A stretch of DNA of 64,000 nucleotides, taken from Skermanella pratensis (GTDB lineage: Bacteria; Pseudomonadota; Alphaproteobacteria; Azospirillales; Azospirillaceae). The stretch covers positions 4,891,001 through 4,955,000 of the forward strand of contig NZ_CP030265.1 in assembly GCF_008843145.1 (NCBI RefSeq), written 5' to 3'. Shown piece by piece: positions 25,752-42,516 of this stretch. Within the stretch, counting starts at the first letter, position 1, and every line of letters begins with the position of its first letter. The notes under the pieces were generated by a model. The model did no database searches, was not told the origin of the DNA, and was given only the letters and a program-made list of their open reading frames with translations. Made by a program: the position numbers and the translations under genes.

Positions 25752-25835
25752 GAATTCAGGCACCTAACTGCTGTGTCCGCGTGCGTGAAATGCTACTGTG
25801 CTCGCCGACCGACCACTTCCATACGGGTATCCGCA

Positions 25836-26252
25836 GTGTCGTTGAAGATTCGCCTGGCGCCGGAAGAACGCATTGTCGTCAACGGCGCCCTGATCCAGGC
25901 CGATGGCCGCTGCACTCTGATCTTCCTGAACAACGTCTCGTTCTTGACGGAAAAGCACATCATGCCGCCGCAAGCCGCGTCGACCCCGGCGCGGCGTATA
26001 TATTTCATGATCCAGAATTCATACATGGCGACCGACCAGGAACGGCCGCCGCTGCTCGAAACCCTGGAAGGCTTCGTCGACGATTTCCACGAGGCGACGA
26101 CGATCCCGGCGATCAAGGAAACACTGGAGTCTATACGGTCCCTGGTAGAACGGGGCGAATACTACCAGGCCCTTAAGCTGGCCGACGCCGTGATGAAGCA
26201 CGAGGACCGCTTCCTCGACCAGCCGAGCTGGCAGGACGCCAGGCGGGCCTGA
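25836..26252 (+). CDS. flbT: FlbT, flagellin mRNA post-transcriptional regulator
   Basis: 138 residues from a GTG at 25836, the point where the family's normal N-terminus begins (SLKIRLAPEERIVVNGALIQ); the frame is open to 25773 but the extra residues are not family-like. Later blocks are FLTEKHIMPPQAASTPARRI and YFMIQNSYM, then LVERGEYYQALKLADAVM. In Caulobacter FlbT binds the 5' leader of flagellin mRNA and destabilises it when the hook is unfinished; FlaF counteracts it. The flaF and flagellin genes lie a few kb downstream on the other strand. A second FlbT-like gene is at 39773. Confidence 0.88.
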   Translation: MSLKIRLAPEERIVVNGALIQADGRCTLIFLNNVSFLTEKHIMPPQAASTPARRIYFMIQNSYMATDQERPPLLETLEGFVDDFHEATTIPAIKETLESIRSLVERGEYYQALKLADAVMKHEDRFLDQPSWQDARRA

Positions 26253-26680: not shown

Positions 26681-28738
26681 ATGATCGAACAGCTTGCGGC
26701 AGTGGCCCGCTGGCACCAGGCCAACGGAAGGCCCGACGAGGCCGAGGCGCTCTATCGGCGCGCCCTTGTCCTCGACGGGTCGGCGGCATCCCTCCACCGC
26801 GCCCTGGGCACCGCGCTGGAGGACCAGGGACGCGTCGAGGAGGCGGCGAATTGCTACCGCCGAGCTCTCGTCCTGGCGCCCGGCGACGCCGACGGCTGGT
26901 GCGACCTCGGCATGGCGTTGCGGCGCCTCGCGCGGACGGAGGAGGCGCTGGGCGCCTACCGGCGCGCAACCGTCCTGGAGCCCGGCTTCGTGGAAGCCTG
27001 GTTCAACCTGGGCAATGCCCTGACCGGCCTTGGCCGCTTCGAGGAGGCGATCCGGGCCTATCGCCAGGCCCTTGCCCTGCGGGCGGGCGATCCCGAGACC
27101 TGGTGCAATCTGGGCAACGCGCTGCACGAGTGCGGCCGGATCGCCGAAGCCGCCGCGGCGGCGGGAACGGCCCTGGCGTTTCGTCCCGACCACGCGCCGG
27201 CCCTGGTCAACCTGGGCAATGCGCTGATCGAGCAGGGCCGGTTCCTGGAAGCACTGGCGCAGTTCCGCCGGGCGGCCAGTATCCGGCCGGCCGATCCGGC
27301 CGCCTTCGCCGGGGCCGGGGTGGCGCTCCGTCAGCAGGGCCGCACCGAGGAGGCCAGGGCCTCGTTCCGGCAGGCCTGGAAGCTGGGCGGCGACCCCGGG
27401 TTGGAGGTCAGGATGGCGCTGGTTCTCCCGATCATCCCGGAGTCGGAGGCGCATATCCGGGAGGTCCGCGAGCGGCTGGCGGACGGGGTGGCGCGGCTGG
27501 CCGAACGCGGCATCCGGCTGCACGACCCGCTCGCCCAGGTCGGCCAGACCTGCTTCTACCTGGCCTACCACGCCGCCGACGATCTGCCCCTCCAGCAGGC
27601 CGTCGCCGGCCTGTACGAGGCCGCCTGCCCGGACCTGCTCCAGGACCGCGCCGACCCGCCGACCCGCCCCGACGGCCGCACCCATGTCGGCTTCGTCTCC
27701 CAGTACTGGCACCAGCACACCATCGCAAAGCTCAACCACGGCCTGATCCGAACCCTCGACCGCGAGCGCTTCCACGTCACCCTGTTCACAACCCCCCACG
27801 CCGGCGACGCCATGCGCCAGGCCCTGGTCCGCGCCGCCGACACGACCGTCGAGCTGCCTCTCGACCTCAAGGCCGCCCGCGACGCCGTCGCCGCCCAACG
27901 CCTCGACGTGCTGTACTACGCCGACATCGGCATGTCGGCCCTGACCTACTTCCTCGCCTTCGCCAGGCTCGCCCCGCTGCAGTGCCTGACCTGGGGCCAC
28001 CCCGACACGACCGGCATCAAGAACCTCGACCGCTTCCTGTCGTGCGGCGCCATGGAGCCGGACGGCGCCGAGCGCCACTACTCCGAGCGCCTGCTCCGCC
28101 TGCCCGGAACCACCCTGCACTACGCCCGGCCCCGCCTGCCGCCCCGGCTCAAGCCGCGCTCGGCCTTCGGCCTGCCCGACGACGCCCGCCTCTATGTTTG
28201 CCCGCAGAGCCTGTTCAAGGTCCATCCCGACTTCGACCGAGCCCTGGTCGACCTGCTGCGGCGCGACCCGCAAGGGCTGGTGGTGCTGCTCTCGGGGCGC
28301 GACCGCAACCTGGACGGCCTGCTGCGCCGCAGGCTCGCCGCCGCCGGCCCCGACGTGGCGGCCCGCTTCCGCTTCCTGCGCCAGATGCCGCTGCCCGACT
28401 TCCTCGGCCTGGTGGCGTGCAGCGACGTCATGCTCGACCCGTTCCACTACAGCGGCGGCAACACCAGCCTGGAGGCCTTCGCGCTGGGCACCCCGATCGT
28501 GACCTGGCCCGGCGCCTTCATGCGCGGCCGCCACACCTACGGCTTCTACCGCCTGATGGGCCTGGACGACTGCGTCGCCCGCGACCACGCACACTATGTC
28601 GAACTCGCCCTCGACCTCGCCCGCGAGCCCGACCGCAGGGCCCATGTCATCCGCCGCGTCCTCGACCGCGTCCCCGTCCTGTTCGACGACACCGAAAGCG
28701 TCCGAGCCATCGAAAACGAAATCCTCCAGACCCGCTGA
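26681..28738 (+). CDS. TPR-glycosyltransferase, SPINDLY/OGT-like (copy 1)
   Basis: 685 residues. About six TPR units (residues 5-225, each like WCDLGMALRRLARTEEALGAYRRA) precede an O-GlcNAc-transferase-like catalytic region (COG3914 / GT41 type): HVGFVSQYWHQHTIAKLNHG, then LAPLQCLTWGHPDTTGI, VCPQSLFKVHPDFD and HYSGGNTSLEAFALGTPIVT. From 27416 to 28718 its DNA is nearly identical to the end of the gene at 36929, whereas the TPR part is different. A plausible role is O-glycosylation of flagellin Ser/Thr, because the flagellin gene lies nearby; donor and acceptor are not known. Confidence 0.87.
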   Translation: MIEQLAAVARWHQANGRPDEAEALYRRALVLDGSAASLHRALGTALEDQGRVEEAANCYRRALVLAPGDADGWCDLGMALRRLARTEEALGAYRRATVLEPGFVEAWFNLGNALTGLGRFEEAIRAYRQALALRAGDPETWCNLGNALHECGRIAEAAAAAGTALAFRPDHAPALVNLGNALIEQGRFLEALAQFRRAASIRPADPAAFAGAGVALRQQGRTEEARASFRQAWKLGGDPGLEVRMALVLPIIPESEAHIREVRERLADGVARLAERGIRLHDPLAQVGQTCFYLAYHAADDLPLQQAVAGLYEAACPDLLQDRADPPTRPDGRTHVGFVSQYWHQHTIAKLNHGLIRTLDRERFHVTLFTTPHAGDAMRQALVRAADTTVELPLDLKAARDAVAAQRLDVLYYADIGMSALTYFLAFARLAPLQCLTWGHPDTTGIKNLDRFLSCGAMEPDGAERHYSERLLRLPGTTLHYARPRLPPRLKPRSAFGLPDDARLYVCPQSLFKVHPDFDRALVDLLRRDPQGLVVLLSGRDRNLDGLLRRRLAAAGPDVAARFRFLRQMPLPDFLGLVACSDVMLDPFHYSGGNTSLEAFALGTPIVTWPGAFMRGRHTYGFYRLMGLDDCVARDHAHYVELALDLAREPDRRAHVIRRVLDRVPVLFDDTESVRAIENEILQTR
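27416..28718 (+). repeat. 1.3-kb direct repeat, copy A (glycosyltransferase domain)
   Basis: Matches 38189-39491 with about nine base differences by eye over 1,303 bp. The similarity begins abruptly after the codons for GGDPGLEV and stops within the last ten codons, so only the catalytic domain is shared. Confidence 0.93.
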
Positions 28739-28757
28739 GCCTTTCGCCAGCTCAAAA

Positions 28758-28787
28758 GGCCGGAAGAGGGTTGCCCCTCTTCCGGCC
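28758..28787 (-). terminator. Terminator between convergent genes (for methyltransferase gene)
   Basis: GGCCGGAAGAGGG pairs perfectly with CCCTCTTCCGGCC over 13 bp. On the minus strand the stem is followed by TTTT, so it ends the methyltransferase transcript; it may also serve the plus-strand glycosyltransferase gene. Confidence 0.8.
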
Positions 28788-28816
28788 CCATGACGCTGCA
28801 TTCCGGGACTGGAGGG

Positions 28817-30151
28817 TCAGGCCGTCTTCTGGGCGACGAAGATCATGCCGAACACCGGCCGGCCGCCGCTGTTGCGAAGCTGCTCGCGCGCGACCGACAG
28901 CACCTTGAAACCGGTATCGGCCAATGCTTTCTGGACATAGGTCCGGCGGTGGGCGAACCGGCCGGCGGCCGAGACCTCGAAATCCGCCAGGAACGACTCC
29001 TCCACCGAGAAGGCGAAGAGACCGTCGGCCTCGACGACGGCCGCCACCTTGGCGAAGAACTCCTCCAGGCGGCCGATATAGCCGCACACGTCGGCGGCAG
29101 CGGCGACGGAATAGGTTCGGTCGATCTCGCCCAGCGTGACCTGGAGGTCGGCAGCCTCGAGCTGGTCGTAGATCTCCTTCTCCAGAGCCAGCTTCAGCAT
29201 GTTGCGCGAGATATCGACGCCCTTCTGGAAGTCGGCGATATCACGCAGCATGACGCCGGTCAGGCCGGTACCGCAGCCGAGGTCCAGCACGGAGGCGAAG
29301 CGGGTCCTGCCGGGGACCGCCTTCAGCAGGTAGCGCCGGATCAGCCCGGGAACGCGGTACCGCAGTTTCTCGATGACATCCCGTTCGTAGTAGCTGGCGT
29401 ACTCGTCGAACAGCCCTTCCACGAAGTTCGCCGGGATCGAGTCCATATCCTCGTCCCGCAGCAGGGAAAGCATGTGCTTCGACTTCCAGTTCGTCGGATC
29501 GAGCTCGACCGCCCGCTGGAACGCGGCGAGAGCTTCGGCGTTGCGGCCGGGAATCCGGTGCAGCGCGTTGCCCAGGTTGTGAAACAGCTCGGGGGCCTCG
29601 ACGATCGCCAGCGTCCGCCGGCAAGCCTCGACGCTGCGGCCATATTCCTTGAGCGAATTCAATGCGCTGGACAGGTTCACAGCGGCGTCCAGCATGTCCG
29701 GGTGAACCGCCAGGACGGCTTCCAACAGTTCCACCGCGGCAAGGTGCTCGCCCTGCCCCATCATCGCGAGGCCCAGGTTGATATAAAGCTGCGGATGTTG
29801 CTCCGGTTCGGAATTGTTGATCGCCTTGACATGGAAGACGACCGCCTCGTCGAACATCTTCATCTGCTGGAGATGGACCGCGAGGCTGTTCAACAGTTCC
29901 CAGTCACGCGGCCGGGCCATCACGGCGGTAGCCAGATCCTGGATGCCGTCGCTCAGTTCCCCCTGCCGGGCCCGGCAGGTGCCGCGCAACGCCAGCAGGT
30001 CGGCATCCTCGGGCTGATCGACCAGCGCGGCGTCAACCGCGGAGCGCGCGCCTTCCAGGTCGCCGCGCGTCAGCAGGATCGCGGCGCGCTGCTTGAGGTC
30101 CGACAACTTGGCAGCGTCGGCCGGCATTTCCATGGTCATTTCAGCAGACAT
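28817..30151 (-). CDS. TPR-linked SAM-dependent methyltransferase
   Basis: 444 residues. The N-terminal half is TPR (about 15-220: LLALRGTCRARQGELSDGIQ, LYINLGLAMMGQGEHLAAVE, LFHNLGNALHRIPG). The C-terminal half is a class I methyltransferase with the SAM motif SVLDLGCGTGLTGVMLRDIA and the post-motif GVDISRNMLKLALEKE, similar to TPR-methyltransferases of the NDUFAF5/BioC superfamily. It lies between two TPR-glycosyltransferase genes, upstream of the DUF1217 and flaF genes, so methylation of flagellin or of its glycan is a reasonable guess, but no substrate is visible. Confidence 0.82.
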   Translation of the reverse strand: MSAEMTMEMPADAAKLSDLKQRAAILLTRGDLEGARSAVDAALVDQPEDADLLALRGTCRARQGELSDGIQDLATAVMARPRDWELLNSLAVHLQQMKMFDEAVVFHVKAINNSEPEQHPQLYINLGLAMMGQGEHLAAVELLEAVLAVHPDMLDAAVNLSSALNSLKEYGRSVEACRRTLAIVEAPELFHNLGNALHRIPGRNAEALAAFQRAVELDPTNWKSKHMLSLLRDEDMDSIPANFVEGLFDEYASYYERDVIEKLRYRVPGLIRRYLLKAVPGRTRFASVLDLGCGTGLTGVMLRDIADFQKGVDISRNMLKLALEKEIYDQLEAADLQVTLGEIDRTYSVAAAADVCGYIGRLEEFFAKVAAVVEADGLFAFSVEESFLADFEVSAAGRFAHRRTYVQKALADTGFKVLSVAREQLRNSGGRPVFGMIFVAQKTA

Positions 30152-30244
30152 TCATCTTCTCCAGATCCCGGCGCTCGGCCGGTGTTGCGGCGGACACCGC
30201 CGGCGCGGGGGAAAGCCGCCGCCAGGGCTGGGGTGTCCGGCATC

Positions 30245-30985
30245 TCACGCAAAGAGGTTCAGGACGTATTTGTTGGCCCCGGTCGCCGAGGAGCCGTCGT
30301 CGGATGCCATCAGGAAACGCTGGGCCAGCTTGTCGACGAATTTTCCGTCCTTCAGATCGGACAGCTTCAGCCGCTTCTCGATCGCCGCAGCCTGTGCTTC
30401 CACCGACTGGTTGGCGAGTTGCAGCGGAAGACCGAGCGCTGTGGTCACCACATGGCGCATCCGCTGGTCACCGAGAATCTCATACGTATTTTTGACGGAC
30501 GAGGCATTCTCCTTGAAGTACAAGGCCAGTGGAACCGCTGAGTTCTGCGAGGCCAGGCCGGCGTCGTACTTGTTCTTGACGTACAGCTCGGCCAGATCCG
30601 CCTTGGTGCTCTCCCGCTGGATCGTGCCGAGACCGTTCTCGCCCAGCTTGAGAAGGCTGGCCGCCGTCTTGAAGCGCTTGTCGACCAGCTTGTTCATCAG
30701 GGCGTCGGGGTCGTCGGCTTTCTGCGTCAGGACCTTTTTGATCAGGCCCATCTTGCCGGTTTCCTTGCCCAGGTCGACCGCGTCCAGCACGAACTGGATC
30801 ATCCGCCTGTCCTTGAACAGGTCGTCGACGGATTTCACGCTCTGGATGTTCTTGTTGAAGTAATCTACCTCGGCCTTGACGTCTTTCCGGTCCGCCATCT
30901 TCTCAAGCGCCGCGTCGCCCTGCTTGAGGGCGAGCTTGTATGCGGCGATCGCCGGCATCTTGGTGAAGACGAGGCTGCTGGACAT
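30245..30985 (-). CDS. DUF1217 flagellar protein
   Basis: 246 residues, highly helical and Lys-rich for this genome. The sequence MSSSLVFTKMPAIAAYKLAL and LFKDRRMIQFVLDAVDLG, with repeated KxxxDPDALMNKLVDKRFKT-type blocks, matches my recollection of the DUF1217 family, which occurs only beside flagellar genes in alphaproteobacteria. There is no signal peptide or membrane segment. Function is unknown; location downstream of flaF and fliC suggests an export or assembly role. It follows flaF by 43 nt on the minus strand. Confidence 0.75.
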   Translation of the reverse strand: MSSSLVFTKMPAIAAYKLALKQGDAALEKMADRKDVKAEVDYFNKNIQSVKSVDDLFKDRRMIQFVLDAVDLGKETGKMGLIKKVLTQKADDPDALMNKLVDKRFKTAASLLKLGENGLGTIQRESTKADLAELYVKNKYDAGLASQNSAVPLALYFKENASSVKNTYEILGDQRMRHVVTTALGLPLQLANQSVEAQAAAIEKRLKLSDLKDGKFVDKLAQRFLMASDDGSSATGANKYVLNLFA

Positions 30986-31028
30986 GGTCGGACTCCGCGG
31001 TGTCGTCTGATCTTCTTGGCCGGCTCCC

Positions 31029-31433
31029 TTATGCCGAGGGGATCTCGGTCGGCAGACCCGCGGCGGCGGCCGTTTCGGGCTGGGCGGCCAGGCCTTCGAT
31101 CATCTGGGTATTGATGTCGATCAGGAAATCGACATCGAGCGTGCCGGTGATGTTCTGGTCGATCTCCCGGATCACCGCCTGTCCGATCGAGATGATCTGG
31201 GCGCGGAGCGGTGCCGGCAGACGGTTCTGGTCGTCCTGCAGCAGCTTGACGATGGTCATCCAGAGAAGCTTGTCGTCCGAGGCGGCGCGGACCAAGTCCA
31301 TGCCGTTGGGATTCGCCTTGCCCTGGATCAGGCCAAAGGTGACTCGCTTGAAGAGATTGGCCTCTTGCGAGCGATAATCGGTCTTCATCATCGCCGCTTG
31401 CTTGTAGGCATTGATCTTCGAGTTCATTGCCAC
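31029..31433 (-). CDS. flaF: FlaF, flagellin synthesis regulator
   Basis: 134 residues from the ATG at 31433 (alternative ATG at 31427). The family core INAYKQAAMMKTDYRSQEANL then FKRVTFGLIQGKA and the helix ending ALRAQIISIGQAVIREID-like (LRAQIISIGQAVIREIDQ) is clear. In Caulobacter FlaF is needed for flagellin translation and secretion and opposes FlbT. It follows fliC with 119 nt between them and precedes the DUF1217 gene on the minus strand. Confidence 0.88.
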   Translation of the reverse strand: MAMNSKINAYKQAAMMKTDYRSQEANLFKRVTFGLIQGKANPNGMDLVRAASDDKLLWMTIVKLLQDDQNRLPAPLRAQIISIGQAVIREIDQNITGTLDVDFLIDINTQMIEGLAAQPETAAAAGLPTEIPSA

Positions 31434-31506
31434 TTCCGTTCAGAACTGCAATTTTCTGATGATTTGGGAGGGAGGGAACCGCCGGAAGGGCCTTGAGGCC
31501 GTCGTG

Positions 31507-31534
31507 CCCCCTCCGGGACGGCGCCCGGAGAGGG
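31507..31534 (-). terminator. Hairpin downstream of fliC
   Basis: CCCCCTCCGGG (31507-31517) can pair with CCCGGAGAGGG (31524-31534) with one bulge. It lies 18 nt after the fliC stop, with no T-run on the minus strand, so it may stabilise the flagellin mRNA or allow partial read-through into flaF. Confidence 0.5.
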
Positions 31535-31552
31535 TTGGACGCGGGCGCGGCC

Positions 31553-32371
31553 TTAACGGAACAGGCCCAGCAGCGACTGCGGCGACTGGTTGGCGATCGA
31601 CAGCGCCTGGCTGGACAGCTGCTGCTTCACCTGCAGGGACTGCAACCGCGCGCTTTCCTTCGCCAGGTCGGCGTCGACGATGGCGCCCAGGCCGGTGTTG
31701 GTCGCGTCGGCGATCGCATTGTTGAACCCGATCTGGTTCGTGATGCGGCGGCTGTCGGCGGCCAGCTGGTTCATGGCGCGGCCAAGGTTGCTTTCCGCGT
31801 TGGCGAGAGCGCCGGTCGTCGCGATCAGCGTGGCGGCGGCCGAGTAGTCCGATGCGGCGGAAAGCTGGGAATAGACGGCGGTCGCCAGGTTCTGCGCCGT
31901 CACCGTGATGTTGCCGCCGTCGATGTTGGAGATGATCGACTGGTTGGTTCCGGTATTGATCAGGGTGATGTTGTTGTACTTGGCGTCCTTGATGAAATTG
32001 TCGATGTCGTTCTTCAGCGTGTTGTACTGGTTCTCGTAGTTCGTGCGGTCCGCACCGGTCAGCGCCTGGTCGGCAAGCTTGGTGAGGACGACGCGAACGT
32101 CCTGAAGCGACTTGGAGATGTTTTCGCCGGCCTTGACGGCGACGTCGATCATGCCCTTGCCGACCGCGAGACGCTCGTTCACCGCGCCGATCGCCTTGAC
32201 GTCGCTGCGGATGCCTTCCGCGACGGCATAGGACGCGCCGTCGTCATAGGCGTCGGCCACGTTCAGGCCGGTGCTGATGCGCTTCTGGGTGGTCGACAGC
32301 GAGTCGCTGACGTTGTTCAGGTTTTTCAGGGCGATCATCGCCCCGATGTTGGTGTTAACCGAGTTGGCCAC
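31553..32371 (-). CDS. fliC: FliC flagellin (short form)
   Basis: 272 residues from a GTG at 32371, preferred because the upstream ATG at 32383 starts ATGGAGGCACC, whose GGAGG is a Shine-Dalgarno sequence 5 nt from that GTG; the resulting N-terminus ANSVNTNIGAMIALKNLN is normal for flagellins. The D0/D1 regions (LSTTQKRISTGLNVADAYDD, and at the end AKESARLQSLQVKQQLSSQA then SIANQSPQSLLGLFR) are complete, while the variable middle is short. The middle is rich in Ser and Thr, possible sites for the glycosyltransferases around it. Confidence 0.95.
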   Translation of the reverse strand: MANSVNTNIGAMIALKNLNNVSDSLSTTQKRISTGLNVADAYDDGASYAVAEGIRSDVKAIGAVNERLAVGKGMIDVAVKAGENISKSLQDVRVVLTKLADQALTGADRTNYENQYNTLKNDIDNFIKDAKYNNITLINTGTNQSIISNIDGGNITVTAQNLATAVYSQLSAASDYSAAATLIATTGALANAESNLGRAMNQLAADSRRITNQIGFNNAIADATNTGLGAIVDADLAKESARLQSLQVKQQLSSQALSIANQSPQSLLGLFR

Positions 32372-32561
32372 CGGTGCCTCCATTTTGGATAGATTGCGGT
32401 CTTCTTCCGCGACTCGATGGTAAGCTCAGATCGTAAAAAGAGTCTTAATTGCCAGATTCCCGGAAGGGGCATCCGCATCTTCAGTTGTATGCGGCACGCC
32501 AGGAGATCCGCGGTTCTCCGCGCTGCCGGGCACGGGCGCGCCGGAGGCTACGGGCGTCTTC

Positions 32562-33734
32562 TCACGGGAAAAGGGAAAGCAGCGTGTTAAAAAATGTCGC
32601 AGGGTTGTGATACGCCCGGCACCGCTCGCCCGCCGCAGGCCCGAGCGCTTGCAGATCCTGCCAGGCATCGGCCAGGCGGACGAGGGCCTCCTCGACCGAG
32701 TCCACGGTGAAATCGACGGCGCGCACGGGCGTGTGTCCGAGGCGGGCCGACTCCAGATCCATCCAGGAGCCGGACGTGATTAGCACCGGCTTGCCGGTCC
32801 CGATCGCCTCCAGATAGACGTGGGACGTGCGCACGTCGTAGATGTCGGGCTGGTAGGGAACCAGCACCGCGTCGGCGCTCGACAGCAATCCCAGATAATC
32901 CGCCTCGGACAGGTTCCGGTCGACGAAATCGACTTCCGGGAGGTCGTGGCGCCACTCGCCCAGCAACGGGCCGAGCAGTTCCGGCCGGCCGCACTGGATC
33001 GTGAAGTCGATGCCGGCGAGGGCGGCGGGGCGGCGGCGCAGCGACTCGACGATCAGGTGGATGCCCTTTTCCTCCCGCGCCTCGCCCAGATACACGAAGT
33101 GGGGTTTCGAGGATCTTCCGCCCCGGACGGTCACGGCGGGATATCGGATCGGGATCGGCAGGCTCGGCATCTCGAAGCCGGCGAGCTTGCTGTAGAACCG
33201 GGCCAGACCGGCGTTGTCGCACGCCATCATCACGCGCTCCGACGGGAACTCGGTCCAGAGCGAGACCGCGTAGCGCTCCAGCGCCACCGCGATCTCGTGA
33301 TACGGGCGCGCCAGGTGGAACCAGGGCGGGAAACGCAGGACCATGCACACGCGAGGCTTCGGGTCCGGCAGGCTGCGGTACCACAGATAGAGGCCGACCA
33401 TCTCGCTGCCCAACACCGTGTGCATGACCACGATGTCGTCGGCCTCGAAATCGGCCGGCACGCCATCGCACAGGTTGCGGCAGAAACTGGTGTTCTTGGT
33501 CGACCAGTTCTGGATCGGCGCCAGTTCCGGCAGGCCGGCGATCTTGGCATAGGAGTGCAGGTCGAAGATCAGGCGGGCGTCGAACTGGTCCTCGATCGCC
33601 GGATCCATTCCCTTGAACCCGTAGAACACCGACTCCACGCCATGGGCGGCCGCCTGCTCCCGCAACACGAGATCCAGGTGGTAGTGGTGACCGGCCGTGC
33701 TGTCCAGGCCGGGATCGAGGACGACGAGCTTCAT
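32562..33734 (-). CDS. Glycosyltransferase (GT4-like)
   Basis: 390 residues. N-terminal MKLVVLDPGLDSTAGHHYHL opens a Rossmann domain (GT-B fold) with the donor-side motifs FVYLGEAREEKGIHLIVESL and ADAVLVPYQPDIYDVRTSHV, then YLEAIGTGKPVLITSGS, where the Glu is the usual nucleotide-sugar contact. It would transfer a sugar from an NDP donor. It lies between flgL and fliC on the same strand, which fits a role in flagellin glycan synthesis; the substrate is unknown. A 99-nt gap separates it from flgL. Confidence 0.82.
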   Translation of the reverse strand: MKLVVLDPGLDSTAGHHYHLDLVLREQAAAHGVESVFYGFKGMDPAIEDQFDARLIFDLHSYAKIAGLPELAPIQNWSTKNTSFCRNLCDGVPADFEADDIVVMHTVLGSEMVGLYLWYRSLPDPKPRVCMVLRFPPWFHLARPYHEIAVALERYAVSLWTEFPSERVMMACDNAGLARFYSKLAGFEMPSLPIPIRYPAVTVRGGRSSKPHFVYLGEAREEKGIHLIVESLRRRPAALAGIDFTIQCGRPELLGPLLGEWRHDLPEVDFVDRNLSEADYLGLLSSADAVLVPYQPDIYDVRTSHVYLEAIGTGKPVLITSGSWMDLESARLGHTPVRAVDFTVDSVEEALVRLADAWQDLQALGPAAGERCRAYHNPATFFNTLLSLFP

Positions 33735-33833
33735 CAGGCTTCCCGCGTGAGGTCGACGCGGCTGGTTAGCACCGGGATGATTGACGAGTCGTGAAGGCTC
33801 CTCCCGCGCCGGACGGCGTTGCCGGGGCGGTCG

Positions 33834-34868
33834 TTACAGGAAGTCGATCAGGTTCACCTGCCGCAGGGTCGATGTCACCTTGTAGGATGCCTGAAGCTGG
33901 GTCTGGATCAGCTGCAGCTTGGTGATCGCCTCGGCCATGTCGACGTCCTCCACGTCGCCCAGGTTCGTCCTGGCCGTCTGCGCGGTCACGTCGTGCTGGT
34001 TGTCGATCGCCTCCATCCGCTTGTAGGTGGAGCCCAGGATGCCGACATGGTTGTCGAGACTCTTGGCGGCGCTGTCCAGCGCGTTGCGCGTGGTGTCCAG
34101 CATGGTGGTGTAGTCGGTGAAGGAGCCGGGATTGGCCGTGTCGTAGGTCAGGGTCGCGGCGGTCGCCAGGCTGCGCAGGATCTCGCGGAACGGTCCGGGA
34201 TCGCCGGCGGGCAGGGCCGGGCTTTCCGGCCCGATGGCGCGGACCTGGTAGCTCAGGTCGAGGTTGCGGTCGACCCGGGCGCGCAGCGGCGACGGATCAG
34301 GCGCCTGCAGGGCCGCCGAGAAATAGGTGTCGTCGGTCGCGATCGCCGTGGTCGCCGTCAGGGTCGCCGCGGCGCCGTTGGCCGCGAAGGCGGTGACCTC
34401 GGTCTCCACGTCGGTGAAGAACTGGGCGGCATTGGGGAACGGCGGATTGTCGATGTCGCTGCCGGCGAAGATGTAGCGCCCCTCCACCTGGGTGCTGAGA
34501 AGCTGCACGACCTCGTCGTAGCCCCGCCGCGCGATGTCCTGGACCACGGCCTGGTTGGGCGGAGGGTTGCCGGTCAGCTTGGTCAGCTGCTCGCGCACGT
34601 CGCGCGCCACGTTCTTGATGCGGTCCATGGTCTCGACCGCGCTGGAGACCCGCAGCTTCGCGGAGGCGATGTTCTTCTGGTAGGTGTCCAGCTCGGTCAC
34701 CTGGCCACGCAGGTCGATCGACTGGCGCGCGTCGGCGCCCAGCCCGCCGTAGACGGGTGTCTTCTTGCCGCTCGACACCTGCGCGGAGGTCTCGGTCAGG
34801 CGCTGCTGGATGGCCAGGTTCTGGGTTTGCAGCCGCAGGAACTGTCCGTTGGTCGAGATCGAGGTCAT
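33834..34868 (-). CDS. flgL: FlgL, hook-filament junction protein
   Basis: 344 residues. The flagellin-like N-terminal segment STNGQFLRLQTQNLAIQQRL (residues 5-24) and the C-terminal helix DMAEAITKLQLIQTQLQASY then KVTSTLRQVNLIDFL identify FlgL (HAP3). It links FlgK to the flagellin filament. It starts 20 nt after the flgK stop, so flgK-flgL form an operon driven by the sigma-54 type promoter at 36421-36436. Confidence 0.94.
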   Translation of the reverse strand: MTSISTNGQFLRLQTQNLAIQQRLTETSAQVSSGKKTPVYGGLGADARQSIDLRGQVTELDTYQKNIASAKLRVSSAVETMDRIKNVARDVREQLTKLTGNPPPNQAVVQDIARRGYDEVVQLLSTQVEGRYIFAGSDIDNPPFPNAAQFFTDVETEVTAFAANGAAATLTATTAIATDDTYFSAALQAPDPSPLRARVDRNLDLSYQVRAIGPESPALPAGDPGPFREILRSLATAATLTYDTANPGSFTDYTTMLDTTRNALDSAAKSLDNHVGILGSTYKRMEAIDNQHDVTAQTARTNLGDVEDVDMAEAITKLQLIQTQLQASYKVTSTLRQVNLIDFL

Positions 34869-34888
34869 GGCCGGACTCCCTGGTCGGA

Positions 34889-36376
34889 TCAGCGCAGGAT
34901 CGAGATGAGGTCGTTGAACAGCTGCCGGTTGGTCGAGACGACCTGGGCGGAGCTGGAATAGGAACGCTGCAGCTGGATCAGGAGCGATACTTCCTGGTCC
35001 AGGTTAACGCCGGATTGATCGGACAGCTTGGTCCTCAGATGGTCGCGCAACGTCGTGGCGGGTTCCAGCTGGGCGGTGGTGCTGGCCCGCAGGTTCGTCT
35101 GGTGGCTGACCAGTTCGGTGGCGAAGGAGGCCAGCGTCGTTCTGCCGGGCAGCACGGTGCTCCGATCGGCGTTGGGTCCGAGGCCGGTGGTCTGGAAAGT
35201 CTGGTCGCCGCCCAGCACGCCGTCGACGATCATGCGCAGCAGGTTGCTGTTCGCCGGGGCGGTGCCCGGGACGATCGGCGACCCGTCGCGCAGCAGGCTC
35301 GGCGTGTCGATGACGTCCTGGGCCACCCGGATCTGGTTGGCGAAGCCGACCGACGAGGTTGGTGGCGTGGCGAGGGGGTCGTCGACCGGAACCACCCCCG
35401 TGCTGTCGGTGAACAGGAGAAGCCCGGCGCCCTCGAACGCCTCGCCCATGGTCTGGGCGAGTTCGTCGAGCTGGGCCTGGAACCGCGGCAAGGTCTGGTC
35501 GCGCAGCTGGAGCAACCCGCCAAGGTTGCCGCCCTGCGCCAGCCGGGCGGTGACGTCGGTACCGGTCGCGGGGTCGCCCAGGCGGATCGGGTCGATGGCG
35601 CCGGGATATGCCGCCTGCGGGTTGATCGAGACCTGGGAGATGGACAGGGGCTGGTAGCCGGCCTCCAGATAGGGCTGGCCGAACCGGTCGAGGATCGAAA
35701 CCGTGCCGTCGCCCCGGCGCATCACGTTGACCTCGATCTGCTCCGAGATCTTCCGCAGCGCCTCGTCCCGCTGGTCCTCCAGGTCGGGCTGGGGCTGGCC
35801 CGTCGCAGTCAGGGAGCGGATCTGCCGGTTGAGGTCGTCGACCCGCTGGAACTGGTTGTTCAGGCCGGTCAGCGCATCCTCGATGTCGACCTGGACCTGG
35901 GTCCGGATGTCGTTGATTCCGTCGGCCACCCGGTTCAGCGTCCGGGCGACGGTGTCGGCCAGCGAGACCACCTGGTTCTGGAGCGGGACGGAGTTCGGCG
36001 AATCCATCAGCCGGGTGAAGCCGTCCTTCATCTGGTTGAGCACGTTGCCCAGGGAGCTTTCCGACTCGGGATCGCCGTGCAGGGTCTCGACCTGGCTCAG
36101 GTACCGCTCCATCACGCTCAGGTTGGCGACCCGGCTGCCCTGCTTGCGCACTTCGTTCTGAAGCGCCGAGTCGACTTCCCGCTCGACGTTGCCGGTCTGG
36201 ACGCCGACGCTCTGTCCCTGGATGACCTGGGTGTACTGGGTCTGGATCTTGCGCGTATAGCCGGGAGTGTCGGCATTGGCGATGTTGCGCGAGACGACGT
36301 CCAGCCCTTGCTGGACGGTCCGAAGTCCGCTCATCGCCGTGCGCAGGGAAACGTCGAGGCCCATCTGATCCACCAT
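34889..36376 (-). CDS. flgK: FlgK, hook-filament junction protein
   Basis: 495 residues from the ATG at 36376; an ATG at 36364 (MGLDVSLRTAMSG) is nearly as good. The frame is open to 36421, but that longer start overlaps the -12 region of the sigma-54 promoter and cannot be transcribed from it. N-terminal SLRTAMSGLRTVQQGLDVVS then NIANADTPGYTRKIQTQYT, and C-terminal LIQLQRSYSSSAQVVSTNRQ, are diagnostic. FlgK (HAP1) is the first protein added on the finished hook. Confidence 0.95.
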   Translation of the reverse strand: MVDQMGLDVSLRTAMSGLRTVQQGLDVVSRNIANADTPGYTRKIQTQYTQVIQGQSVGVQTGNVEREVDSALQNEVRKQGSRVANLSVMERYLSQVETLHGDPESESSLGNVLNQMKDGFTRLMDSPNSVPLQNQVVSLADTVARTLNRVADGINDIRTQVQVDIEDALTGLNNQFQRVDDLNRQIRSLTATGQPQPDLEDQRDEALRKISEQIEVNVMRRGDGTVSILDRFGQPYLEAGYQPLSISQVSINPQAAYPGAIDPIRLGDPATGTDVTARLAQGGNLGGLLQLRDQTLPRFQAQLDELAQTMGEAFEGAGLLLFTDSTGVVPVDDPLATPPTSSVGFANQIRVAQDVIDTPSLLRDGSPIVPGTAPANSNLLRMIVDGVLGGDQTFQTTGLGPNADRSTVLPGRTTLASFATELVSHQTNLRASTTAQLEPATTLRDHLRTKLSDQSGVNLDQEVSLLIQLQRSYSSSAQVVSTNRQLFNDLISILR

Positions 36377-36420
36377 CACCCGCAGTTCCCGCCGGATGCG
36401 GAACCTGTCGCCATCCTCCA

Positions 36421-36436
36421 AGCAAACTCCGGGCCA
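36421..36436 (-). promoter_or_regulatory. Sigma-54 type promoter for flgK-flgL
   Basis: Minus-strand TGGCCCGGAGTTTGCT matches both blocks with GG-N10-GC. Predicted start is about 36410, 34 nt upstream of the flgK ATG at 36376. Confidence 0.8.
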
Positions 36437-36522
36437 GAAGGGAAATTCTTAGAGCGCAAAGGGCGGTCGCGGCGCTGCCGACCGTCCGCGGGGCCGGCGC
36501 GGCAGCTGCGCCGGCCTGGACT

Positions 36523-36541
36523 CCCGGCAAAATCTGCCGGG
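36523..36541. promoter_or_regulatory. FlbD-type palindrome upstream of flgK
   Basis: CCCGGCAAAATCTGCCGGG, the most perfect of the set: 7-bp arms identical in inverted orientation around AAATC. It is 87-105 nt upstream of the flgK sigma-54 element. Confidence 0.7.
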
Positions 36542-36763
36542 GCCATGCACGCTTTGCCGGGGGTGCCGAGGCGGGCGGTACAAGGCATATGAAGCTTACG
36601 CCAACTCCACTCGACGGCATGATGCGAAAGCAGACGATCGTCGGCTTGGCGCGGACCGACCCGGTCGTGACACAGGTCCGCATGCCGGGCTTCATCGCGG
36701 CCATCAAAACCCTGGAGGAGCGAAACGACGCCATCTCCGACCTGATCGAGCGTCATAAGGCGC

Positions 36764-36807
36764 AACGTGCCCTGCACAGCTCCACAACGTGCCCTGCGCA
36801 ATTCCAC
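36764..36807. repeat. 22-bp tandem repeat
   Basis: AACGTGCCCTGCACAGCTCC plus AC (36764-36785) is followed directly by AACGTGCCCTGCGCAATTCC plus AC (36786-36807), three differences. No function is evident. Confidence 0.8.
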
Positions 36808-36928
36808 AATGAAGCCGGCATGGCGGTGGAGGCGACGCGGGAGGTCGCGGCGCCTGTCGAGCGGGACGGCGAAGGCCGGGATGTTCCCGGGATCGCGCCG
36901 GTGTTACGGTGCGGCGGTCCAAGTCCCC

Positions 36929-39508
36929 ATGGAACGATGCCTCCCAATGCTCGCCGAACTTCTCAAGACCGCCCAGCACCATCACGAAGCGGGGCGCCTG
37001 GCCGAGGCGGCACGGGCGTGCCGGCAGGCGCTGGGCCTTGCCCCCCCGGCCGGCCCCCTGCTGGTGATCGGCCAGGTCGGCGCGCAGGCCGGCGACTGGG
37101 ACCTGGCGGCCGACGCCTTCGGCGCCCTGCTGGCGATGCGTCCCGACGATCCGGACATCCTGCTGGAATACGGGATCGCCCGGCGGCACCAGGGACGGCC
37201 CGACGCCGCGGCCGAAGCCTACCGGCGCGCGATCGGCCTTGACCCGGGAATGATCGAGGCCTGGCTCAACCTGGGTCACGCGCTTCTGGAGCAGGGGAAC
37301 CCCGCCGAAGCCGCCGAGGCATTCGGCACCGCCGCAGCGCTTGACCCGGACAGGCCCCCGGTCCATGCGAATCTCGGCATGGCGCTGCTGGCCGCCGGCG
37401 ATCCCGCCGGGGCGGAGGCCGCGTTCCGCGATTCCCTGGCGCGCGATCCGTCCGGCATGCCGGCGCTCGCCGGGCTGGGCACCGCCCTGGTCCGGCTGGG
37501 CCGCCTGTCCGACGCGGCCGAGGTCCATCGGCATGCCCTGGCCATCGACCCTTCGCTCGCTTCCGCGTGGCACGACCTGGCCATGGTCCTGACCGCGCGC
37601 GAACTGCCGGAACAGGCGGCGCCCGCCGCCCGCCGCGCGGCCCTGTGCGACCCGGCCGACCCGGCTGCCCCGCTGACGCTCGGCAACATCCTGCTTGTCC
37701 TGGACCGGCTGGACAGGGCTGAGGCGGCATACCGGCGCGCCGCGTCGCTGCGCCCCGACGAAAGCGACGCCTGGAACAACCTGGGCTTCTGCCTGAACCG
37801 CCTGGGCCGGCACGGCGACGCCCGCGAGGCCCTGGCCCGGGCCGCGACCCTGGATCCCGGCTTCGCGGCCGCCTGGTGCAACCTGGGGGCCGCCCTCGCC
37901 GGCCTCGGCCGCCATGGCGAGGCCGTCGCGATGTGGCGGCGCACACTCAGGCTACGGCCCGACCATCCGGAGGCGCTGATCAGCCTGGCGAACGCCTTCC
38001 TGCGCGACAACCGGCTCGGCAACGCCGCCGCGATCCTGGGCCACGCCCTGGCCGTGATGCCGGACTTCCCGCGCGCCCAGACGATGCTCGGCAACATGCT
38101 GCTGGACCAGGGTCATCTCGACCGCGCCCGGACAGCCTTCCGCCAAGCCCGCCGCTTGTGCGGCGACCCTGGGCTGGAGGTGAAGGAAGCGCTGGTTCTC
38201 CCGATCATCCCGGAGTCGGAGGCGCATATCCGGGAGGTCCGCGAGCGGCTGGCGGACGGGGTGGCGCGGCTGGCCGAACGCGGCATCCGGCTGCACGACC
38301 CGCTCGCCCAGGTCGGCCAGACCTGCTTCTACCTGGCCTACCACGCCGCCGACGATCTGCCCCTCCAGCAGGCCGTCGCCGGCCTGTACGAGGCCGCCTG
38401 CCCGGACCTGCTCCAGGACCGCGCCGACCCGCCGACCCGCCCCGACGGCCGCACCCATGTCGGCTTCGTCTCCCAGTACTGGCACCAGCACACCATCGCA
38501 AAGCTCAACCACGGCCTGATCCGAACCCTCGACCGCGAGCGCTTCCACGTCACCCTGTTCACAACCCCCCACGCCGGCGACGCCATGCGCCAGGCCCTGG
38601 TCCGCGCCGCCGACACGACCGTCGAGCTGCCTCTCGACCTCAAGGCCGCCCGCGACGCCGTCGCCGCCCAACGCCTCGACGTGCTGTACTACGCCGACAT
38701 CGGCATGTCGGCCCTGACCTACTTCCTCGCCTTCGCCAGGCTCGCCCCGCTGCAGTGCCTGACCTGGGGCCACCCCGACACGACCGGCATCCGCAACCTC
38801 GACCGCTTCCTGTCGTGCGACGCCATGGAGCCGGACGGCGCCGAGCGCCACTACTCCGAGCGCCTGCTCCGCCTGCCCGGAACCACCCTGCACTACGCCC
38901 GGCCCCGCCTGCCGCCCCGGCTCAAGCCGCGCTCGGCCTTCGGCCTGCCCGACGACGCCCGCCTCTATGTCTGCCCGCAGAGCCTGTTCAAGGTCCATCC
39001 CGACTTCGACCGAGCCCTGGTCGACCTGCTGCGGCGCGACCCGCAAGGGCTGGTGGTGCTGCTCTCGGGGCGCGACCGCAACCTGGACGGCCTGCTGCGC
39101 CGCAGGCTCGCCGCCGCCGGTCCCGACGTGGCGGCCCGCTTCCGCTTCCTGCGCCAGATGCCGCTGCCCGACTTCCTCGGCCTGGTGGCGTGCAGCGACG
39201 TCATGCTCGACCCGTTCCACTACAGCGGCGGCAACACCAGCCTGGAGGCCTTCGCGCTGGGCACCCCGATCGTGACCTGGCCCGGCGCCTTCATGCGCGG
39301 CCGCCACACCTACGGCTTCTACCGCCTGATGGGCCTGGACGACTGCGTCGCCCGCGACCACGCACACTATGTCGAACTCGCCCTCGACCTCGCCCGCGAG
39401 CCCGACCGCAGGACACACGTCATCCGCCGCGTCCTCGACCGCGTCCCCGTCCTGTTCGACGACACCGAAAGCGTCCGAGCCATCGAAAACGCCATCCTCC
39501 GGGCCTAA
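36929..39508 (+). CDS. TPR-glycosyltransferase, SPINDLY/OGT-like (copy 2)
   Basis: 859 residues from ATG 36929 (alternative 36947, MLAELLKTAQHHHEAGRLAE). It carries about eleven TPR units (to residue about 415), roughly twice as many as copy 1, then the same catalytic domain (THVGFVSQYWHQHTIAKLNH, CLTWGHPDTTGIRNLDRFL, HYSGGNTSLEAFALGTPIVT). The join lies right after GDPGLEVKEAL, where DNA similarity to copy 1 rises sharply. This suggests duplication followed by gene conversion, or exchange of the TPR half. TPRs normally bind the acceptor, so the two enzymes may use one donor on different acceptors. Confidence 0.87.
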   Translation: MERCLPMLAELLKTAQHHHEAGRLAEAARACRQALGLAPPAGPLLVIGQVGAQAGDWDLAADAFGALLAMRPDDPDILLEYGIARRHQGRPDAAAEAYRRAIGLDPGMIEAWLNLGHALLEQGNPAEAAEAFGTAAALDPDRPPVHANLGMALLAAGDPAGAEAAFRDSLARDPSGMPALAGLGTALVRLGRLSDAAEVHRHALAIDPSLASAWHDLAMVLTARELPEQAAPAARRAALCDPADPAAPLTLGNILLVLDRLDRAEAAYRRAASLRPDESDAWNNLGFCLNRLGRHGDAREALARAATLDPGFAAAWCNLGAALAGLGRHGEAVAMWRRTLRLRPDHPEALISLANAFLRDNRLGNAAAILGHALAVMPDFPRAQTMLGNMLLDQGHLDRARTAFRQARRLCGDPGLEVKEALVLPIIPESEAHIREVRERLADGVARLAERGIRLHDPLAQVGQTCFYLAYHAADDLPLQQAVAGLYEAACPDLLQDRADPPTRPDGRTHVGFVSQYWHQHTIAKLNHGLIRTLDRERFHVTLFTTPHAGDAMRQALVRAADTTVELPLDLKAARDAVAAQRLDVLYYADIGMSALTYFLAFARLAPLQCLTWGHPDTTGIRNLDRFLSCDAMEPDGAERHYSERLLRLPGTTLHYARPRLPPRLKPRSAFGLPDDARLYVCPQSLFKVHPDFDRALVDLLRRDPQGLVVLLSGRDRNLDGLLRRRLAAAGPDVAARFRFLRQMPLPDFLGLVACSDVMLDPFHYSGGNTSLEAFALGTPIVTWPGAFMRGRHTYGFYRLMGLDDCVARDHAHYVELALDLAREPDRRTHVIRRVLDRVPVLFDDTESVRAIENAILRA
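38189..39491 (+). repeat. 1.3-kb direct repeat, copy B (glycosyltransferase domain)
   Basis: Partner of 27416-28718, same orientation, offset 10,773 bp. Visible changes are AAG/CGC (Lys to Arg), a G/A (Gly to Asp), two silent C/T, and three near the end (GGGCCCATG / GGACACACG). Confidence 0.93.
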
Positions 39509-39772
39509 TGGAATCGGGCGAAACCCGAACGTCCGCGAAGCAAACATCTTCGGCTGCCCATGAGCGTTCGCGCGCCGCCTTGCGCCCGGTCCGCAGCGAC
39601 CCGGCTTTTTCTCAAAAGTGTTACATCTTGAAGTGTAACTCTTTCTTGCAAGCTACTTTGAAGACAGACATAATCCCGGCCATCAACACCGGGCGGGGCA
39701 AGCTTTGATGGCCACCCGCGATGTCCAGCAACGACTGCAAGCCAGCAACGACTGCAAGAGGGTGGCACGACA
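39509..39772. promoter_or_regulatory. Leader region of the second flbT-like gene
   Basis: 264 nt. GTTACA-TCTTGAAG-TGTAAC (39620-39639) is an operator-like inverted repeat. CCAGCAACGACTGCAAG is present twice in tandem (39725-39741 and 39742-39758), ending 14 nt before the next gene; AAGAGGGTGG there supplies the ribosome-binding site. Confidence 0.55.
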
Positions 39773-40189
39773 ATGACCGAAACGATCGAACTGATTGCTC
39801 TCCCGCTCCAGCCCGGCGGCACCGTCATCGTCAAGGGCGTTCCGATCCATATGCAGGCCGACGGCACCGTCATGGTCCCCAAGGACACCCCGACCCTGAC
39901 CCGCGAGCAGTTGATCCTGGACGAGAAGGACGCCGACACGGCGACCAAGCGCATCTATTACGCGCTTCAGCTGATGACCCTGGACAGCGCCTCCGCCGCC
40001 ACCTACCACGGCAAGCTGATTTCGCTGCTCGACGACCGGGCGGAAGCGACCGAGCTCCAGCCGGTGCTGCGCAGCCTGGCGATCATTTCGGAACTGAGCC
40101 GGAAGGGCGAGTACCTCGCCGCGCTGGAAGTCTGCCGTCACCTGATCCAGTTCGACGACGCGCTGGTCCGCGAGTTCCCGGCCGGCTGA
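39773..40189 (+). CDS. FlbT-like protein (second copy, divergent)
   Basis: 138 residues, the same length as the FlbT at 25836. It shares the layout: N-terminal beta segment (ALPLQPGGTVIVKGVPIHMQ), then ATKRIYYALQLMTLDSASAA where FlbT has TPARRIYFMIQ, then a helical end with LSRKGEYLAALEVCRHLIQF like LVERGEYYQALKLADAVM. Overall identity is low. If FlbT binds flagellin leader RNA, this copy could act on another flagellin gene or oppose the first. It lies between two TPR-glycosyltransferase genes. Confidence 0.75.
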   Translation: MTETIELIALPLQPGGTVIVKGVPIHMQADGTVMVPKDTPTLTREQLILDEKDADTATKRIYYALQLMTLDSASAATYHGKLISLLDDRAEATELQPVLRSLAIISELSRKGEYLAALEVCRHLIQFDDALVREFPAG

Positions 40190-40230
40190 TGCCCGGCGCC
40201 ATGGCAAGTCCGGGCTTCACCGGTTAGAGC

Positions 40231-42516
40231 ATGTCCGATGAGCATTCGGCGGCCCGCGCGTCCAGGGCCGCCTCTTCCGCCGATCCGGTCGCGGCCCAGT
40301 ACCCTTCAACTCCTTCCGGCCCGGCCTCAGCCCTGAATGCCGAGCTGCTTGCCGGAGCCGAGCGGTCCCTTCTGGCCGGAAACCTCGTGATGGCGGGCTG
40401 GCTTTGCGAGGAGGTCCGGCAGGTCGAGCCGGACTCCCCGGGCGCCTCGCACATCCTCGGGCTGATCGCCGAGCAGGAGGGGCAACTCCGCGAGGCGTCC
40501 CGGCTCTTTCGCCAGGCGCTGGCATCCGATCCCGGCTTCAGCGCCGCCTGGCTGAGCCTCGCCTCGCTGCACCGGTCGAGCGGCAATCGGGAAGCGGCGC
40601 TGCTGTGCTGCCGCAGCGCGCTCCTGATCGACCCGGCCGACCGCGACGGCTGGTACAACCTGGGCAACGCGCTGTTCGACGGCGGCTGCGCCTCGGCCGC
40701 CGCCGAAGCCTATGGCCGCGCCCTGCGGATCGACCGCCACCACGACTCCGCCTGGCACAACCTGGGCATCGCCCTTCATCTGGCCGGCCGTCCCGAGGCC
40801 GCCCTGGCGGCCTTGCGCAATGCCGCCGCCTACCGGCCGGACAATCCGTCGACCTTCCACCAGATCGGGGTGGTCCGGTTCCGCGCCGGCGACCTGGACG
40901 ACGCCCTCCGGGCGGTGGGGCGGCAGGCTCGGCTCGATCCGGCACACCTGGACGGCAGCCTGATCCGGCTCCTGGCGATCGCGTTGCGCGACGCCGGGCG
41001 GACGGGCGATGCGATCCCGATCACCGCGCTGGCGGTATCGCACCAGCCGGAGGACGTCGACCTGAGGCACTGCCTCGGGATGCTCCACTTGGCCGATCGC
41101 GACCTGTCGGCGGCCGAGGCGATCTTCCGCGCCACCCTGTGCCACGGCCCGGCCGATCCTTTCGCGCTGAATTCGTACGGCGTGATGCTGAACGGCATGG
41201 GCAGGTCGCGGGAGGGAGCGCGGCTGCTGCGGCGCTCCCTCCTGCTGCAACCCGGAAACGCGGAGATCCACAGCAACCTGCTGCTGACCCTCCAATACGA
41301 CGGGTCGCTCGGCCCGGCCGACCTGAAACGCCTCCATGCGGAATGGTACCGCCGCCACGCGCCGCCCGGCGGATCGGCCGGCACGCCGCCGGCGCGTCCG
41401 GAAACGATCCGCGATCCGGAACGGCGGCTCCGCATCGGCTACGTCTCGGCCGATTTCGGCCAGCACCCGGTGGGCTTCTTCCTCAGCGGGGTGGTCCTGC
41501 ACCACGACAGGGACTCCTTCGAAGTCCACTGCTATTCGGCGCGCCGGCGGAGCGACGCCCTGACGGCCCGCTTCCGACGCATGGCGGACCACTGGCACGA
41601 GATCGGCGACACCGACGGCGTGGAACTGGCCGACCGGATCCGCGGCGACGGCATCGACATCCTGGTGGACCTGTCGGGACACACGGCGAACAACCGGCTG
41701 CGCGCCTTCGTCCATCGGCCGGCGCCGGTCCAAGCGACCTGGGCCGGCTATGTCGGAACCACCGGCATCCCGGCGATCGACTACCTGATCTCCGACCCGC
41801 GCCAGACGCCGGACGGAATCGACCGCCATTACGCCGAGCGGATCATGCGGCTGCCCGACTGCTATGTCTGCTACGAGCCGCCGCCCTATGCGCCGCCGGT
41901 CGGTCCCCTGCCGGCGCTCGAATCCGGCACCGTCACCTTCGGCTGCTTCAACAATCTCGCCAAGCTGGACGAGGCCAGCATCGCCCTCTGGAGCACCCTG
42001 CTGCGCGACCGGCCCGACCGGCGGCTGATGCTCCAGACCTTCGCCCTGGACGTCCAGGACGTGCGCGATGCCGTGACGGCGCGGTTCGCCGCCCACGGCG
42101 TGGCACCCGGCCAGCTCGAACTGCGGCCGGCGGCCGGCCACGCGGGCCTTCTCCAGTCCTACAACTCGGTCGACATAGCCCTCGACCCGCTGGCCTATTC
42201 GGGCGGACTGACCACGCTGGAAGCGCTGTGGATGGGCGTGCCGGTGATCACGCTGCCGGGCGAGCGGTTCTGCACCCGTCACAGCCTGTCCCACCTGACC
42301 GCTGCGGGGCTTCCCGGCCTCGTGGCGGAGGATGCGTCGGGATATCTGGCGCGGGCGGAGGGACTGGCCGCCGATCTCGGACGGCTGGCCGAGCTGCGCG
42401 GCAGGCTGCGCGACCGGATGGCGGCCTCGCCGCTCTGCGACTCCGCCCATTTCACGCGGACGCTGGAAGCGGCGTTCAGGCGGATGTGGCGGGACCTCTG
42501 CCTTAGGCCAAAATGA
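40231..42516 (+). CDS. TPR-glycosyltransferase, OGT-like (copy 3, distinct)
   Basis: 761 residues. About eight TPR units (to about 370) precede a full GT41-type domain: RLRIGYVSADFGQHPVGFFL, GIDILVDLSGHTANNRLRAF, VQATWAGYVGTTGIPAIDYL and LDPLAYSGGLTTLEALWMGV. These are closer to canonical bacterial OGT/SPY than copies 1 and 2, and the DNA is unrelated to them. Reaction: transfer of a sugar from a nucleotide donor to Ser/Thr. It begins 41 nt after the flbT-like gene, so flagellin or another flagellar protein is a likely acceptor (inference). Confidence 0.88.
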   Translation: MSDEHSAARASRAASSADPVAAQYPSTPSGPASALNAELLAGAERSLLAGNLVMAGWLCEEVRQVEPDSPGASHILGLIAEQEGQLREASRLFRQALASDPGFSAAWLSLASLHRSSGNREAALLCCRSALLIDPADRDGWYNLGNALFDGGCASAAAEAYGRALRIDRHHDSAWHNLGIALHLAGRPEAALAALRNAAAYRPDNPSTFHQIGVVRFRAGDLDDALRAVGRQARLDPAHLDGSLIRLLAIALRDAGRTGDAIPITALAVSHQPEDVDLRHCLGMLHLADRDLSAAEAIFRATLCHGPADPFALNSYGVMLNGMGRSREGARLLRRSLLLQPGNAEIHSNLLLTLQYDGSLGPADLKRLHAEWYRRHAPPGGSAGTPPARPETIRDPERRLRIGYVSADFGQHPVGFFLSGVVLHHDRDSFEVHCYSARRRSDALTARFRRMADHWHEIGDTDGVELADRIRGDGIDILVDLSGHTANNRLRAFVHRPAPVQATWAGYVGTTGIPAIDYLISDPRQTPDGIDRHYAERIMRLPDCYVCYEPPPYAPPVGPLPALESGTVTFGCFNNLAKLDEASIALWSTLLRDRPDRRLMLQTFALDVQDVRDAVTARFAAHGVAPGQLELRPAAGHAGLLQSYNSVDIALDPLAYSGGLTTLEALWMGVPVITLPGERFCTRHSLSHLTAAGLPGLVAEDASGYLARAEGLAADLGRLAELRGRLRDRMAASPLCDSAHFTRTLEAAFRRMWRDLCLRPK

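Follow-up and report, generated by a model that had tools for sequence, protein, structure and literature searches.

The specificity of cytoplasmic bacterial O-glycosylation has been described as poorly understood (PMC7591256). FlmG of Caulobacter crescentus, a flagellin-linked alphaproteobacterial enzyme, combines an N-terminal TPR arm with a C-terminal GT-B domain; its TPR domain binds flagellins and its GT domain does not, and this single enzyme serves all six flagellins with pseudaminic acid (PMC7591256). The same order of parts, a TPR superhelix followed by a GT41 GT-B domain, is found in O-GlcNAc transferase and SPINDLY. Recurrent gene conversion between paralogues has been described as long-lasting concerted evolution in prokaryotes, for example in tuf and fla (PMC6053082), and conversion limited to one region is known from the mammalian receptors TLR1 and TLR6 (PMC2077338). 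Bacterial concerted evolution, domain-limited conversion and targeting by a TPR arm are each already known in these systems. Our searches of open-licence papers turned up no account of a bacterial pair of protein glycosyltransferases in which conversion recurs and is limited to one domain.

We analyzed a 64,000-nucleotide stretch of the Skermanella pratensis genome (the window), in which two TPR glycosyltransferase (TPR-GT) genes, A and B, flank the flagellin, flgL and flgK genes. As in FlmG, an N-terminal TPR arm precedes a C-terminal GT-B domain in a flagellin-linked setting, but here two enzymes share one catalytic half. The genomic context of the FlmG class is present, with flbT, flagellin, flgL and flgK adjacent, which is context and not proof of substrate. 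The pseudaminic-acid gene expected of that class is missing: NeuB (PF03102) is absent from the window's genome (G000), from the congeners G002 and G003 and from the sister-genus genome G005, and the Caulobacter control was positive. Because NeuB is missing, we regard A and B as FlmG-like in architecture, a comparison of layout rather than of FlmG's sequence, and do not file them as FlmG.

The paired enzymes and their flagellar locus

From their sequences and a structural model of A, A and B are predicted to be GT41-type TPR glycosyltransferases of the OGT/SPY superfamily, with TPR units, a GT-B domain and an equivalent of the catalytic Lys. The Glyco_transf_41 family (PF13844) matches with 56 bits against a Pfam cut-off of 25, profile matches of the catalytic domain to OGT, SPY and HMW1C chains range from E 2e-26 to 4e-47, and the best solved-structure matches of the catalytic fold are SPINDLY and O-GlcNAc transferase. 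In structure 5djs, that of a bacterial homologue, the residue changed by the K341M mutation aligns with an invariant Lys of the block, K268 (number 513 of the 685 residues of A). The GT41 Pfam score of A and B (E 2e-15) is weaker than that of the nearby gene C (E 1e-51), and no Maf domain is found among the Pfam or NCBIfam matches of A. Both enzymes are presumably cytoplasmic and protein-directed. They differ from O-GlcNAc transferase and SPINDLY in lying in a bacterial flagellar locus.

Table 1. Features of the locus, with positions in the window.
Feature	Positions	Strand	Evidence and remarks
FlbT	25773..26252	+	PF07378 E 9e-32; upstream of A
TPR-GT A, 7 TPR units and predicted GT41-type GT-B catalytic domain, 685 aa	26681..28738	+	Pfam TPR, Glyco_transf_41; AlphaFold; orthologues in G002 and G003
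TPR arm of A, not homogenised	26681..27415	+	A-versus-B TPR dS 0.89; A orthologue dS 0.26-0.29
Homogenised catalytic block, copy A	27416..28718	+	spans A from residue 246 to about 680; differs from copy B at 9/1303 bases; site patterns
TPR-methyltransferase, between the blocks	28817..30151	-	Pfam; kept in all five species
DUF1217 protein	30245..30985	-	Pfam PF06748
Flagellin, candidate acceptor	31553..32383	-	Flagellin_N and Flagellin_C; 94-99% aa identity across the genus
Weak group-1-type glycosyltransferase	32562..33734	-	Pfam match below cut-off
FlgL hook-filament junction protein	33834..34868	-	TIGR02550 E 1.5e-34, just under cut-off; Pfam flagellin domains
FlgK hook-filament junction protein	34889..36421	-	PF22638, PF00460, PF06429
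TPR-GT B, 12 TPR units and the same catalytic domain	36881..39508	+	Pfam; ORF and TPR units read from the translation
TPR arm of B, not homogenised	36929..38188	+	dS; tree split from A arms
Homogenised catalytic block, copy B	38189..39491	+	9/1303 differences from copy A; site patterns
Second FlbT homologue, between B and TPR-GT C	39773..40189	+	PF07378 E 5e-17
TPR-GT C, GT41 enzyme, not homogenised	40231..42516	+	Pfam E 1e-51; catalytic domain about 31% identical to A/B

Gene A sits downstream of flbT and a short ORF, and the start codon of gene B is uncertain (36881, 36929 or 36947). The AlphaFold model of A has a mean pLDDT of 90.9 and a pTM of 0.87, and its seven TPR helix pairs finish at residue 236, followed by an extra helix (239-246). 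The block that A shares with B starts at residue 246, and its end lies just ahead of the stop codon, a few codons short of A's C terminus. Because it begins at the end of the TPR superhelix and ends near the C terminus, the block corresponds to the catalytic domain and nothing else. The first-pass annotation had given the arms about 6 and 11 TPRs; the numbers are indeed unequal, but they are 7 and 12 units of 34 residues, the former from the 14 TPR helices in the model of A and the latter counted by eye on the translation of B.

Two ORFs initially considered in this region are in the wrong frame: the real gene at the minus-strand ORF 35004-36734 is flgK, and that at the plus-strand ORF 39721-40227 is the second flbT. 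The flbT gene occurs twice across the locus, and the second copy may pair with a different flagellin. Six Flagellin_N matches are found in the whole genome G000, apparently three flagellin-type and three FlgL-type genes, so that this genome probably has more than a single filament or flagellar system. Matches to sigma-54 sites were no commoner than expected by chance.

The shared block and its history across the genus

An in-register alignment of the two blocks (offset 10,773) gives exactly 9 mismatches over 1,303 bp, in agreement with the earlier estimate of about nine bases. In copy A, the mismatches lie at 28019-28021, 28047, 28198, 28348, 28640, 28642 and 28645. They fall in six codons, three of which alter the amino acid (K450R, G459D and A657T; residues counted from the GTG at 26672). 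The three adjacent bases at 28019-28021 change a codon from CGC to AAG (R to K) and are peculiar to copy A of this genome; the triple difference looks like a single multi-base change and not three separate ones. The edges of the block are as sharp as had been proposed: identity between A and B drops from 100% to 42-66% on the left, and past the stop codon it is about 25%, the chance level. The TPR arms were likewise correctly described as unlike in sequence, with 56.5% DNA identity, 46% amino-acid identity and a dS of about 0.9 between A and B in the window, compared to a dS of 0.014 within the block. The genome, a single contig of 5.87 Mb, holds only two copies of the block, and the third match is 36 bp long.

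We compared the pair across five genomes of the genus, including that of the window; two of the others are near-complete (G002 and G003) and two are drafts (G001 and G004). G002 and G003 carry the same two genes about 12.3 kb apart with the same intervening genes. Within these two genomes the blocks are about 99.5% and 99.9% identical, whereas between species the identity is 93-95%; the catalytic alignment has 14 mismatches over 1,361 positions in G002 and 1 over 1,356 in G003, and both are 5-7% off the window's sequence. In the three species, block dS is 0.014, 0.021 and 0.003 within a genome, compared to 0.12-0.15 between species. The TPR arms show the reverse, with a dS of about 0.65-1.1 between A and B and of 0.23-0.31 between orthologues of different species. 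Between species the block has a lower dS than the arms; this was considered as a special feature and rejected, as it lies within the range of neighboring genes (about 0.07-0.29).

Site patterns and trees agree with these distances. Among the A and B copies of the three species, 98 block sites have a species-specific base common to both copies, and no site within the block separates A from B in these six sequences (ababab pattern); in the short flanks of the block there are 15 such sites, and this is the commonest pattern just outside it. For the block, a tree forcing an A clade and a B clade is rejected (delta lnL 365, AU p < 1e-50), the protein tree agrees, and the tree of the TPR arms splits A from B with 100% support. 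The block dS, the site patterns and the AU test all support the gene conversion that had been suggested, and the blocks of G002 and G003, each species-specific, show that relatives were homogenised independently. Relative to the block's start in the window, the tract runs over 0..1302 in the window, 7..1307 in G002 and -33..1322 in G003, and the unequal ends fit separate events. In G002 the block has six differences, near its ends, around a clean center of 999 bp (p about 0.001), and this clean central kilobase looks like a recent tract.

In both drafts, a separate contig runs from the tail of A through the methyltransferase, DUF1217, flagellin, FlgL and FlgK genes to the junction of the TPR and catalytic parts of B, and the contigs that carry the A arm and the B arm terminate in an identical stretch of 49 or 51 bp. 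Assemblers behave so at near-identical repeats; the contig breaks at the block edges thus imply homogenisation in these two species as well, although the drafts miss most of the block. Homogenisation is therefore seen in three species and implied in two, that is, in all five species of the genus. Paralogues closer to each other than to their orthologues, also at synonymous sites, in a pair that predates the species, point to concerted evolution as judged from the sequences. We conclude that the catalytic halves of A and B very probably undergo recurrent gene conversion limited to this domain, which the TPR arms escape. Conversion as first proposed holds, but a single recent event does not, as the process recurs across the genus. 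The earlier term 'modular swap' misleads, since each arm remains at its own locus and the part that gets copied is the catalytic half.

The pair itself appears old. In the sister-genus genome G005, which matches the Arenibaculum pallidiluteum copy (locus L036), a pair of TPR-GT genes is found at these two places, in the order flgD, flgE, flbT, A, methyltransferase, DUF1217, flagellin, flgL, flgK, B. Since the pair is syntenic throughout the genus and in this sister genus, it is judged to be old and the conversion recurrent, and it is probably older than the genus. In the tree, the catalytic domains of the G005 pair group most closely with one another; its arms score almost equally against the A arms and the B arms of the genus, which does not assign them to either. 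At only 58% amino-acid identity between its catalytic domains, the G005 pair indicates that such a pair can persist without homogenisation, and present-day homogenisation is a feature of this genus. A survey of the family (82 genomes) found no further pair homogenised in this way.

Paired copies also occur in other genomes. Genome G038 has two copies but was rejected as a second instance, as they lie within an 11.4-kb duplicated segment of 99.7% identity; in Azospirillum sp. TSH64, this TPR-GT occurs twice in an 11.4-kb, 99.7% identical segment on two contigs (L079:7705-19066 and L080:1-11347). Magnetospirillum sp. SS-4 carries two GT41-type TPR-GTs about 4 kb apart (L044:5045-7381 and 11284-13263), with catalytic parts of 79% DNA identity and flanks that are much less alike. 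This pair may be an earlier product of the same process, but it is too diverged to be claimed as a second instance.

Mechanism of homogenisation and competing explanations

Ordinary homologous recombination probably accounts for the pattern: the blocks are direct repeats at a distance of 10.8 kb, and exchanges between them, resolved as conversion, would run only where the sequences match and would halt on reaching the unrelated 3' flanks or the diverged arms, whose DNA identity is about 57%. Sharp edges and 99.3% identity would also be expected if the catalytic domain had been duplicated once, recently and in this strain, and fused to a second TPR arm, a duplication being the other origin that the first-pass annotation had offered. 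The genes lie at the same places genus-wide, however, with orthologous arms and species-specific blocks, and the sister genus has its pair at the same two places, which makes such a duplication extremely unlikely. Conserved catalytic residues might suggest that purifying selection alone keeps the two halves alike; dS refutes this, as synonymous sites are near-identical within a genome and not between species, and we give the idea practically no weight. It is also very unlikely that assembly collapse or over-polishing mimics the likeness. Such repeats are hard for short reads and both draft genomes break there, but the single-contig genome retains nine differences between its copies, two other near-complete assemblies do likewise, each with its own species-specific bases in both copies, and polishing would hardly yield a 99% copy yet keep the junctions to different arms.

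The direct orientation raises the question of a switch, in which crossing-over would excise the 10.8-kb flagellin-flgL-flgK segment, leave one hybrid TPR-GT and make motility vary; the layout implies that, wherever in the block the crossover fell, an intact enzyme with the A arm would remain. In all five species the segment is still present and bordered by block sequence at either end, the loss of flgK and flgL would be permanent, and no recombinase gene is among the genes annotated here, so we consider a switch very improbable. Gene conversion, whether selected for or a by-product, would hold both enzymes catalytically equivalent. That it is a neutral by-product has close to an even chance: near-identical, long and close direct repeats exchange without selection, the end of homology sets the limit, and 1.3-kb repeats at this distance recombine without further cause. 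Consistent with this, the block edges are where homology ends. GC-biased conversion was considered and rejected, as the GC3 of the block is 0.95 compared to 0.88 for the arm, but 34 other TPR-GTs differ by a mean of +0.025 (sd 0.034), and the excess of the block (+0.06), inside the spread of these controls, is no special signature. Neutrality is still compatible with two observations that weigh against it, namely that homogenisation is seen or implied in every species and that no species has lost the segment between the repeats, for which some purging of deletions is needed. On the other reading, selection would act through recurrent conversion to maintain one catalytic sequence in both enzymes, and the arms would specialise on different flagellar acceptors. 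We hold this only tentatively, at rather less than an even chance, and the three amino-acid changes among the differences within the window's block count against selection for sameness.

Acceptors, donor and comparison with known systems

With a common catalytic domain, both enzymes would use the same sugar donor and chemistry. A NeuB-made nonulosonic acid is an unlikely donor, given the absence of NeuB, and the donor is probably a different one from that of FlmG. In Azospirillum brasilense, a member of the same family, the glycans on flagellin are described as having rhamnose, fucose, galactose and GlcNAc units (PMC3958885), which would be in keeping with nucleotide-hexose donors. By analogy with FlmG, the TPR arms would present different flagellar acceptors or sites, such as flagellin, FlgL/FlgK or the other flagellins of the genome, and it is plausible, at up to an even chance, that the A and B arms choose different acceptors. 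In Azospirillum oryzae (L030), a single A/B homologue (9497-11368) adjoins not flagellin but a 2,369-aa repeat protein (2214-9323), starting 174 bp after it; this protein has Ser/Thr/Gly-rich repeats and no Pfam match and is a candidate acceptor. Similar DNA repeats are also found in L031 and L034. The neighbor in A. oryzae hints that enzymes with different arms may have different acceptors.

The locus provides a natural, near-perfect comparison, with practically one catalytic domain behind two arms in the same cell and at the same locus, so that any difference in acceptors must stem from the arm or from expression. The homogenisation or signs of it in all five species suggest one catalytic engine kept in step behind two target-recognition arms; if selection and arm specialisation are true, this would be a natural bacterial system of 'one engine, two address labels'. 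The locus is, moreover, a clean bacterial example of gene conversion confined to one domain, with three species separately homogenised and two more implied.

Of the known systems, FlmG and TLR1/TLR6 are the best parallels to A and B. Recurrent conversion between paralogues is shared with the prokaryotic cases reviewed with tuf and fla, but no glycosyltransferase is named in the text of that paper, and in A and B only one domain is homogenised (PMC6053082). The maf genes of Campylobacter are a flagellin glycosyltransferase family with identical members (maf1 = maf4 in NCTC11168), but they belong to another enzyme family, and identity is stated for genes and not for a single domain as in A and B (PMC13130089). 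In NRPS assembly lines, recombination is limited to parts of modular bacterial enzymes, as it is here; there it alters substrate specificity, whereas in A and B it preserves a common catalytic domain and does not touch the arm (PMC9205934). TLR1 and TLR6 resemble A and B in being paralogues with one homogenised region and a diverging N-terminal region, through independent conversions in nine species, but they are eukaryotic receptors with a boundary inside the LRR region, and A and B are modular bacterial enzymes (PMC2077338).
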